From Gammaproteobacteria bacterium (lineage in GTDB: Bacteria; Pseudomonadota; Gammaproteobacteria; SZUA-229), in NCBI GenBank assembly GCA_026195895.1, contig JAPHRO010000034.1, positions 1 to 48,206 of the forward strand: a stretch of DNA of 48,206 nucleotides, in the 5' to 3' direction. Shown here in pieces: positions 45,254-48,206 of this stretch. Position 1 is the stretch's first letter. Each line of letters starts with the position of its first letter. The translations under genes were made by a program, and so were the position numbers. Under the pieces are notes generated by a model. That model was not told the DNA's origin, ran no database searches, and saw only the letters and a program-made list of their open reading frames with translations.

Positions 45254-46024
45254 ATGCTGATAGTTATATCCCCTGCAAAAACACTGGATTATGATACCCC
45301 TCCAAAAACAAAGACATTTACTCTGCCTGATTATCTTGATCAGTCACAACAGTTGATAGATCGTATGCGGGAATTTTCGGCACTGGATATATCTGAGTTG
45401 ATGAAGGTTAGTACAAAAATTGCAGAGCTAAATTTTGATCGTTACGAAGCCTGGAATCGCAATTTCACACCGGATAATGCCAAACAGGCTGTACTTGCAT
45501 TCAAAGGTGATGTGTACACTGGTCTGGATGCGGAGTCTTTTAAAGCGACTGACTTTAAATTTGCACAAAAACATCTGCGGATTCTTTCAGGATTATATGG
45601 CTTGTTACGGCCGCTGGATCTCATGCAGGCATATCGCCTTGAAATGGGAACAAAACTGAAGAATGTTAGAGGTAATAACCTGTATGAATTCTGGGGTTCT
45701 GACATCACTGATGGGCTTAATCAGCAATTAAAGAAAATCAAGTCAAATTATTTAATTAATCTGGCTTCAAACGAATATTTTAAAGCTGTTAAACCCAGAC
45801 AATTAGACGGTGAAATTATTACGCCAGCATTTAAAGACTATAAAAATGGTGAATATAAAATGATAGGTGTTTATGCTAAAAAAGCACGCGGTACACTGAG
45901 TCGTTTCATTATTCAGAATCAGTTGGCTGACCCAGAAGATTTAAAAGATTTTAATGGGGATGGTTACAGTTATAATAAGAAGTTGTCTAAAGAAAATAAC
46001 TGGGTGTTTACGCGTAAAGCATAA
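45254..46024 (+). CDS. yaaA: Peroxide stress protein YaaA
   Basis: 256 residues, the usual length. '[17 protein letters not shown]' at the start, '[12 protein letters not shown]', '[20 protein letters not shown]' and '[14 protein letters not shown]' are the YaaA (DUF328) signature. In E. coli, YaaA limits free iron and DNA damage under peroxide stress and is OxyR-controlled; no OxyR site is evident here. A terminator follows. Confidence 0.94.
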
Positions 46025-46043
46025 TATTGTGTATATATGGAAT

Positions 46044-46074
46044 AAAAAAGGGCTGTATATTCAGCTCTTTTTTT
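46044..46074 (+). terminator. Terminator after yaaA
   Basis: AAAAAAGGGCTG-TATATT-CAGCTCTTTTTTT, a stem with one G-T pair and a long T run, 20 bp after the yaaA stop codon. Confidence 0.85.
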
Positions 46075-46225
46075 GAAACAGAAAGCATTAAGCTTTTGAC
46101 ATGGTTATGAACTTTGTAATTTAATCAACTAGTTTTATCTTCCTGGTCTTTTTATTCAACACATAAACAACGGTTTCATCTTTAGGGCCAGAACCAGTTT
46201 CTGTATAGAAAAATATGACAAATTC

Positions 46226-46720
46226 ATGAAAGTAACTGTTGACGATAGAATAAAAGCCAAAGCAAAAGTACCGCACAATTTATTTATGCTAAATCTGGCG
46301 CTGTTTCATTTGTTGATGACACCTGCAACTATTGCAATGAATATCGGTATGTCAGGTATGTTGTTGCCTTTGTTTTTGTCGTTATCTGTAATAGCATATA
46401 CCTGGAAGCGCAGTACAAATGAAAATAAGCATGAGCACTGGTTTATTTTTGTCCACTGGAAGCTTGCTGCCCAGCGTTGTCGCATGTTGCTGGTTTCTTA
46501 TCTTGTAGCGGCTGGCTTGTTAGCGCTAGGCTGGTTGTTGGCGTTGAATTCCACAGATTCTAATATGCAGGATATTATACAGACGGTATTTATAAGAATA
46601 GCAATTATGCCGGTGCTGCTAATGGTAATGATTAATTTTTATCTTGAATCTAGTGCAATAAATCAGGTTGCCAGTGGTGAGATTCCAGATGCTATGGTTA
46701 AACGATTTCCACAGCCCTAA
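46226..46720 (+). CDS. Conserved membrane protein of unknown function
   Basis: 164 residues with about four membrane helices (about 20-35, 40-58, 85-107, 122-145). 'WFIFVHWKLAAQRCRMLLVS' sits between pairs. No family I can name. Ribosome site is weak. The divergent neighbouring stretch on the minus strand (46121-46225) contains a possible gene remnant. Confidence 0.6.
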   Translation: MKVTVDDRIKAKAKVPHNLFMLNLALFHLLMTPATIAMNIGMSGMLLPLFLSLSVIAYTWKRSTNENKHEHWFIFVHWKLAAQRCRMLLVSYLVAAGLLALGWLLALNSTDSNMQDIIQTVFIRIAIMPVLLMVMINFYLESSAINQVASGEIPDAMVKRFPQP

Positions 46721-46751
46721 AATATGCAAAGTAATATGCGGGATAAATAGG

Positions 46752-47288
46752 CTGAAGGGTAATATTGATTTCTGGTATTCAGAAGAAGGCAGTAAATCTT
46801 GGTTTAATTCGACTGCTGATTTTGAACAGTAACTACCTGTAAACTAATTTCACATATAGCAGCAGGCAAAAGATGATAAATTGTTATATTGATTAGATTC
46901 TCCCAATGGCTGTTTAGCACTGGCGATCATTGTTGACCAGTTTTTACTAAATATGTTTCATGGTACTGCAGAAAGTTTCGCTACGGAATCTGTGGCTATT
47001 GATGTTGTATTACATGCGATTGAATATGGTTTTGATCAAGAGATTGCTTTGAATCAGATAACGTATTTATATATGCCATTGACGTATAGTGAAAATATTA
47101 AGCATCAGCATTTATTAGTAGAAAAATATTCTCAGACCGGGCTTGATCACAATATAAAATTTACCCATCATCATCACGATATCATTAAACGTTTTGGTCG
47201 ATTTCCTCATCGCAATGCAATAGCTGGCAGAAAAAGCACCTCTGATGAAATTGGCTATCTTAATTCTGTGGATGCTTTTAAAAGCTGA
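46752..47288 (+). pseudogene. DUF924 family pseudogene with four in-frame stop codons
   Basis: One frame carries recognisable DUF924 sequence over its whole length: 'NIDFWYSEEGSKSWFN' near the start, 'CLALAIIVDQFLLNMFHGT' before and around 46953 (normally DQFPRN..RGT), and 'HHHDIIKRFGRFPHRNAIAG' near the end. It is broken by TAA at 46830, TAA at 46845, TAG at 46857 and TGA at 46890, all in the same frame with no frameshift. The TGA stands where the family normally has Trp. The 111-residue frame from the ATG at 46953 is only the C-terminal part. No convincing start is present upstream. Such multiple nonsense changes indicate decay. Confidence 0.82.
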
Positions 47289-47593
47289 ATTGAGCGCAGA
47301 ACAGGCGCCTGCCTGAGATCTCAAGGCGTGTCTTATTGATAACAAATTCAAATTAATATTTTGATTGTTTAACTGTAAGTCATTGAATATATAGCGTGAT
47401 TTTTTTCCATCTAAGATCAAGTTTCATATGTAAAAATATAAATAAATTCTTATTTGCCGGGGCTTTGTTGATAAGTGGGCATTTTTTCATTTAATATATT
47501 GTGGTTTTAATAATATGGTAACTGAGCAGGTGACATAGGCTGTCGATGGGTATTTCGACATCATAATTCCTAAATGAGAAAAGAAGGTGTGTT
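47289..47593. other. Intergenic region without an identified gene
   Basis: 305 bp of AT-rich sequence between the DUF924 pseudogene and a small membrane protein gene. No gene or hairpin seen. Confidence 0.4.
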
Positions 47594-47707
47594 ATGACTA
47601 GTGCAACTAAAAGTTTTGGTGGTATTTGTGTTTTCTGTGGTGCAATAGCGATTTCCGTTATTGCTGCAATATCTTTGTTAGTTATAATCTGGACACAATT
47701 TTTATAA
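47594..47707 (+). CDS. Small single-span membrane protein (37 residues, unknown)
   Basis: ATG at 47594 with AGAAGG at good spacing opens 37 codons. After a short polar start with two Cys ('GGICVFCGA'), one strong hydrophobic helix follows ('IAISVIAAISLLVIIW'). A perfect terminator follows 20 bp after the stop. Family unknown. Confidence 0.65.
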   Translation: MTSATKSFGGICVFCGAIAISVIAAISLLVIIWTQFL

Positions 47708-47726
47708 TACCGTTTTAATATTTTTT

Positions 47727-47762
47727 CATAAAAAAGCCGCTTTGATTAGCGGCTTTTTTATG
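47727..47762. terminator. Bidirectional rho-independent terminator
   Basis: A 15-bp stem: CATAAAAAAGCCGCT pairs with its reverse complement across a TTGATT loop. Lies between the small membrane protein gene (plus) and the convergent EAL gene (minus). Confidence 0.92.
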
Positions 47763-47795
47763 CGGATGATTTTTTAATGGTTTATTCTGTTTGCT

Positions 47796-48206
47796 TTATC
47801 CTGTCATCGATGTAAAGTCATAATCCAGGTCGGGAGCGGGTTCCTGTAAAAAATTGCCCTGGATAAAATTAATTCCCATACCCCAGAGTACTGACAGACT
47901 GGTCGCATCCTGCACACATTGCGCAATGGTGAGTTTATTCATTTCCATTGCAGTCTCGGTAATTTTTTTCACCGCTTCCTGGTTTTCACTGCTCGATGAG
48001 AGTTCTTCCATAAATGAACGTTCAAGTTTTAGATAGTCCGCAGGAATGTGCTTTAATAGTTCGAAAGGGTTGCTGCCAGTTCCAAAATCATCAAGCGCAA
48101 ATCCACAATTTAATTGTTGCAGGGATTTGGCCAGTTCTGCGGTATGTTTGAGGCTGGTAACAGCAACGCTTTCCTTAACTTCAAAAATCAGACTGTTTTG
48201 AGGAAC
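47796..48206 (-). CDS. EAL domain protein, C-terminal part (partial, runs off the window)
   Basis: 136 residues, open to the window edge. 'LIFEVKESVAVTSLKHTAEL' , 'FALDDFGTGSNPFELLKHIP' and 'YLKLERSFMEEL' are late EAL motifs, and 'GINFIQGNFLQEPAPDLDYDF' is an end shared with FimX-like gammaproteobacterial EAL proteins. The catalytic E-A-L motif and any sensory or GGDEF part are outside the window, so activity cannot be judged. Confidence 0.88.
   Translation of the reverse strand, partial: VPQNSLIFEVKESVAVTSLKHTAELAKSLQQLNCGFALDDFGTGSNPFELLKHIPADYLKLERSFMEELSSSSENQEAVKKITETAMEMNKLTIAQCVQDATSLSVLWGMGINFIQGNFLQEPAPDLDYDFTSMTG

Follow-up and report, generated by a model that had tools for sequence, protein, structure and literature searches.

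Probable recent inactivation, by base substitution, of a DUF924 gene in a gammaproteobacterial genome

The DUF924 (PF06041) copy found near one end of a gammaproteobacterial contig is most probably a pseudogene, formed recently by the inactivation of a dispensable gene, and we place the probability of this reading at roughly 0.93. It is a dead relative of the family and not a working member, and its condition is that of ordinary gene decay, not of a surviving shortened protein. The window analysed here is the whole contig of 48,206 bases, and 918 bases separate the end of the pseudogene from that of the contig. The features on which the argument depends are the following.

45254–46024, forward strand: yaaA (PF03883), intact; in genus g5, the partner lying upstream of DUF924
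46226–46720, forward strand: hydrophobic open reading frame (ORF) of 164 residues, separating yaaA from DUF924; membrane-like by eye
46743–47288, forward strand: DUF924 pseudogene, full length and free of indels, running from the position where homologs start to the original stop
46743–46745, forward strand: position of the lost start codon, reading ATA, with no upstream Shine–Dalgarno sequence
46830–46892, forward strand: stretch of 21 codons holding all four in-frame stops (TAA, TAA, TAG, TGA)
46953–47288, forward strand: residual ATG-to-stop frame beyond the last internal stop, 111 codons, drifting and without a Shine–Dalgarno sequence
47796–48206, reverse strand: EAL-type gene by eye, cut by the contig end; also the downstream neighbour in four of five g5 genomes

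When the frame is read through its stops, the product matches the PF06041 profile over positions 2–178 of 180 (E 3.2e-44, 151.6 bits against a curated cut-off of 27 bits), which is homology far beyond chance; the last 111 residues alone match with E 6.7e-29. The internal stops are TAA at 46830–46832, TAA at 46845–46847, TAG at 46857–46859 and TGA at 46890–46892, all in one frame, as the initial annotation had read them; the original terminal stop codon is still in place. Alignments to close relatives contain no gap inside the gene, so there is no frameshift, and the proposal of a pseudogene formed by substitution without frameshift is supported. Moreover, no intact relative that aligns without 46830–46892 was found, as the 13 core orthologs described below all run through this stretch gapless. 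The gene start, previously put at 46752, belongs at 46743–46745. Only one stop had been placed at a tryptophan position; such stops do exist, and there are two of them among the four, at residue 36 (tryptophan in 12 of the 13 core orthologs) and at residue 47 (13 of 13). Of the remaining two, one lies at a tyrosine/phenylalanine column and one at a variable column. Disabling changes relative to intact orthologs, which define a pseudogene, are therefore present, and, given the four stops and the ATA, the coding sequence is neither intact nor provided with a start codon. A profile search of the genome returned the pseudogene as its single PF06041 match. A second DNA copy as the source of the stop-rich stretch was rejected, since the 620-base DUF924 region finds only itself in the genome. 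Local scrambling of 46830–46892 was likewise rejected, because this stretch is variable in the intact g5 relatives too.

The signals for translation initiation are also gone. The five g5 genes begin with ATG or TTG at the homologous position, and most of them are preceded by a purine-rich ribosome-binding site, recognised by eye, of which nothing is recognisable at the pseudogene. At 46743, the 16S tail is predicted to pair at +0.6 kcal/mol, against a median of −3.8 kcal/mol over 29 ORF starts chosen within the window. Comparison with intact relatives thus shows, at the level of sequence, that the start codon, the ribosome-binding site and four sense codons were lost by substitution.

Constraint has been lost outside these sites as well. 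Thirty loci were compared, of which 17 were aligned and 13 left out, mostly because of an insertion and otherwise as partial or weak matches (loci L032–L041 are not in the alignment). For the count of invariant columns and for the codon models, 13 of the 17 served as the core, the divergent L002, L003, L004 and L008 being excluded. These 13 intact orthologs share 39 invariant columns, of which 11 are changed in the pseudogene: 3 of the 12 up to residue 67 and 8 of the 27 after residue 67. With a set of columns ending one residue earlier, 10 of 38 are lost, and 18 of 25 are kept when all 17 aligned orthologs serve as the reference. In a leave-one-out control, in which each intact ortholog was set against the other 12, seven of the 13 lost no invariant column and four lost one. 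The remaining two were L031, a core ortholog from an uncultured Ectothiorhodospiraceae MAG and the one relative obtained from a scan of named genomes, which lost two, and the divergent L007, which lost seven.

Loss of purifying selection, a further hallmark of pseudogenes, is found by a codon model in which the pseudogene branch closes with a neutral phase, estimated at 0.19 substitutions per codon (2ΔlnL 8.40; P ~0.002, boundary-corrected chi-square). For yaaA, taken as a control, the neutral phase on this branch comes out at 0.001 substitutions per codon. Repeating the test on each of the 13 intact DUF924 tips yields a 2ΔlnL of at most 0.07 for 12 of them and of 1.41 for L007, whose estimate of 0.097 substitutions per codon is an insignificant hint. 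In profiles computed on a coarse grid with the other parameters fixed, the N-terminal part peaks at 0.3 neutral substitutions per codon (zero being 3.3 log units worse) and the C-terminal part at 0.2 (zero being 5.0 log units worse). Under these models, the whole gene, its C-terminal part included, is shown to carry the marks of recent neutral drift after long constraint. Start loss, stop gain, invariant loss and the codon model all agree, which makes this a tidy case.

Comparison with related DUF924 genes, which the initial annotation had proposed as a means of dating the loss, places it late. The pseudogene is 49% identical in amino acids to g5, against 72% within g5; the corresponding values are 80% and 93% for yaaA, and 90% and 95.5% for the EAL-type gene (four g5 genomes). 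Taken whole, the pseudogene branch is therefore not accelerated. Allowing it an omega of its own gives 0.090, against 0.107 elsewhere, without improving the likelihood, and forcing omega to 1 along the whole branch is 8.8 log units worse. The unaccelerated branch and the two omega results together imply that the gene died late in comparison with the split from g5, and they fit a long period of constraint before its death. A single omega for the branch is uninformative, since synonymous sites are saturated along it; the neutral phase consequently rests mainly on replaced conserved residues, and the precision of dating is limited by this saturation.

Decay by base substitution alone had been called unusual, and this was overstated. 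On the codon-model grid, the neutral phase spans about 0.06–0.39 substitutions per codon, which over 173 codons amounts to about 33 (10–67) substitutions; judged from the lost invariants alone, the number is about 70. In simulations, 33–75 neutral substitutions produce 1.9–3.8 stops (1.9–3.5 for 33–67), and the last 130 codons (44–173) remain free of stops with P 0.31–0.09 (0.31–0.11 for 33–67). An open C-terminal frame is thus expected by chance in roughly 10–30% of cases at such a stage of decay. The absence of indels is mildly surprising, and more so if the decay lies near the upper end of its range: the probability runs from 0.37 to 0.0001 for 33–67 substitutions, according to the indel ratio assumed. 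For instance, mutation-accumulation lines of Teredinibacter turnerae are reported to have yielded 779 substitutions and 106 indels (PMC5833318), from which our own division gives a ratio of 0.136; at this ratio, 33 substitutions would pass without an indel with P 0.011, and at an assumed ratio of 0.05 with P 0.19. Four stops spanning no more than 21 codons have P 0.003–0.005, given four stops, in neutral simulations with 33–75 substitutions. This clustering is a mild oddity, treated as chance because it was picked out post hoc for looking odd. In the T. turnerae lines, mutations are reported to lie within 50 bases of one another more often than expected (PMC5833318).

Whether the C-terminal frame is drift or a still-translated remnant had been left undecided, and the evidence supports drift. 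According to the second of these readings, which we hold to be very improbable, the gene is truncated yet functional, its last 111 residues being translated from the ATG at 46953 and maintained by selection. The frame does stay open for 131 codons after the last internal stop, without indel; all four stops lie upstream of it (P 0.013–0.018, given four stops, for 33–75 substitutions); and the HHxxIIxRFGRFPHRN block is mostly retained. However, a truncated functional gene should retain constraint on its remaining frame, and here the invariants after residue 67 are lost at the same rate as those before it, while the profile for the C-terminal part alone prefers a neutral phase. These two results together lead to the conclusion that the C-terminal frame drifts like the rest. 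Nor does 46953 have the ribosome-binding site that such a gene would need: the predicted 16S-tail pairing of +0.7 kcal/mol reveals no Shine–Dalgarno sequence, and about 81% of the 1876 ATGs in the window pair at least as strongly. Additionally, no free-standing C-terminal piece is seen among relatives, since the three shortest matches (G012, G041 and G060) lie at contig ends by their coordinates. The remnant reading is without positive support beyond the open frame, and a C-terminal frame left open downstream of several stops says little in favour of a protein having survived. NCBIfam has no family for either the C-terminal frame or an intact ortholog.

Similarly improbable is the re-use of 46953–47288 under a new constraint, either as a new short protein or with its transcript acting as an RNA. 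If true, it would account for both the upstream-only position of the stops and the absence of indels.

A sequencing or assembly error within an intact gene is less likely still. Assembly errors do produce false pseudogenes (PMC11017572), and the gene lies close to a contig end. Against this, the start codon, the Shine–Dalgarno sequence and 10 further invariants are changed besides the stops, throughout the gene and without any indel, and the adjacent yaaA is intact. Least credible of all is that the stops are read through or reassigned so that the full protein is made: the preserved frame and the two stops at tryptophan columns would suit it, but recoding was rejected on account of the three different stop codons, the surrounding long ORFs are normal under the standard code, and both the initiation signals and conserved residues elsewhere in the gene are lost.

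The locus itself suggests how inactivation of the DUF924 gene may have come about. Among the genomes compared, its nearest intact orthologs belong to genus g5 (45–50% identical over 172–173 residues), where DUF924 stands directly behind yaaA in all five genomes, the aligned parts being 55–116 bases apart, and is followed in four by the EAL-type gene on the opposite strand. This order is kept at the pseudogene locus, with the 164-residue ORF interposed. The ORF has no Pfam or NCBIfam match; it has matches in 14 of 54 family genomes, the source genome included, which holds a second, distant copy on contig C59. Its closest relatives (in G003, G004, G015, G023 and G028) lie on contigs other than those bearing yaaA, and the g5 genomes that possess one carry it away from the yaaA–DUF924 locus. 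The placement here therefore looks lineage-specific, and as far as seen the ORF stands between yaaA and DUF924 only at this locus. In four g3/g4 genomes (L115, L116, L117 and L118), the ORFs behind yaaA are unlike those found here, and so the spot seems readily rearranged in the family.

In the gap between yaaA and the 164-residue ORF, 46027–46048 and 46149–46170 form an imperfect 22-nt inverted repeat (82%), which could be the mark of a rearrangement or chance. Further downstream, at 47594–47707 on the forward strand, a hydrophobic ORF of 37 codons has the strongest predicted ribosome-binding site of the 29 ORF starts (−6.9 kcal/mol); behind it comes a perfect inverted repeat of 15 bp with a run of T (47727–47762). 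The ORF is likely an unannotated small membrane protein, with matches at E≤0.01 in nine of 54 family genomes, source genome included; the best four others cover 35–37 of 37 residues at 47–50% identity, and it is absent from the g5 yaaA–DUF924 loci. An RNA element at DUF924 was considered and rejected, as 46000–48206 has only two matches, each far short of its gathering score and situated downstream of the gene.

The ancestor probably carried DUF924 directly behind yaaA, as g5 still does. A rearrangement inserting the 164-residue ORF may then have severed DUF924 from the yaaA transcript, or the gene may simply have become unneeded. Selection would have ceased, after which point mutations would have piled up. 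Full deletion may come next, as the absence of DUF924 from genera g3 and g4 suggests.

The distribution of DUF924 points to dispensability within the bacterial family. PF06041 matches occur in 29 of the 54 family genomes (source genome included), and internal stops only in the source genome; 25 lack a match, including 10 of the 22 genomes with completeness of 90% or more and contamination of 5% or less. Around yaaA of G002, G014, G022 and G003, no trace of DUF924 was detected at E up to 1 (5.0–9.5 kb read), and these genomes have no PF06041 match anywhere; in G011 and G026 (g12), DUF924 is present and does not adjoin yaaA. A search of the open-licence literature found no paper on DUF924. One further recent gene loss carries little weight alone.

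Among known systems, the closest are the g5 orthologs themselves (L009, L013, L015, L019 and L021), which resemble the pseudogene in full-length gapless homology and in their place behind yaaA. Unlike it, they have a start codon and no internal stop, and they retain every column that is constant among the remaining core orthologs. A single relative with a solved structure came up, Atu0120 (PDB 2i6h); it matches the ortholog profile with E 6.4e-40 over 169 of 175 positions and is itself named "hypothetical protein". Bacterial pseudogenes that arise through nonsense and missense changes are exemplified by aaxB of Chlamydia trachomatis (PMC2720952). In that report, aaxB is, as here, inactivated by substitution, judged recent and without a relaxed ratio over the whole comparison. 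There, a single nonsense change in one lineage is backed by experiments, whereas the DUF924 case consists of four stops and a lost start, read from the DNA.
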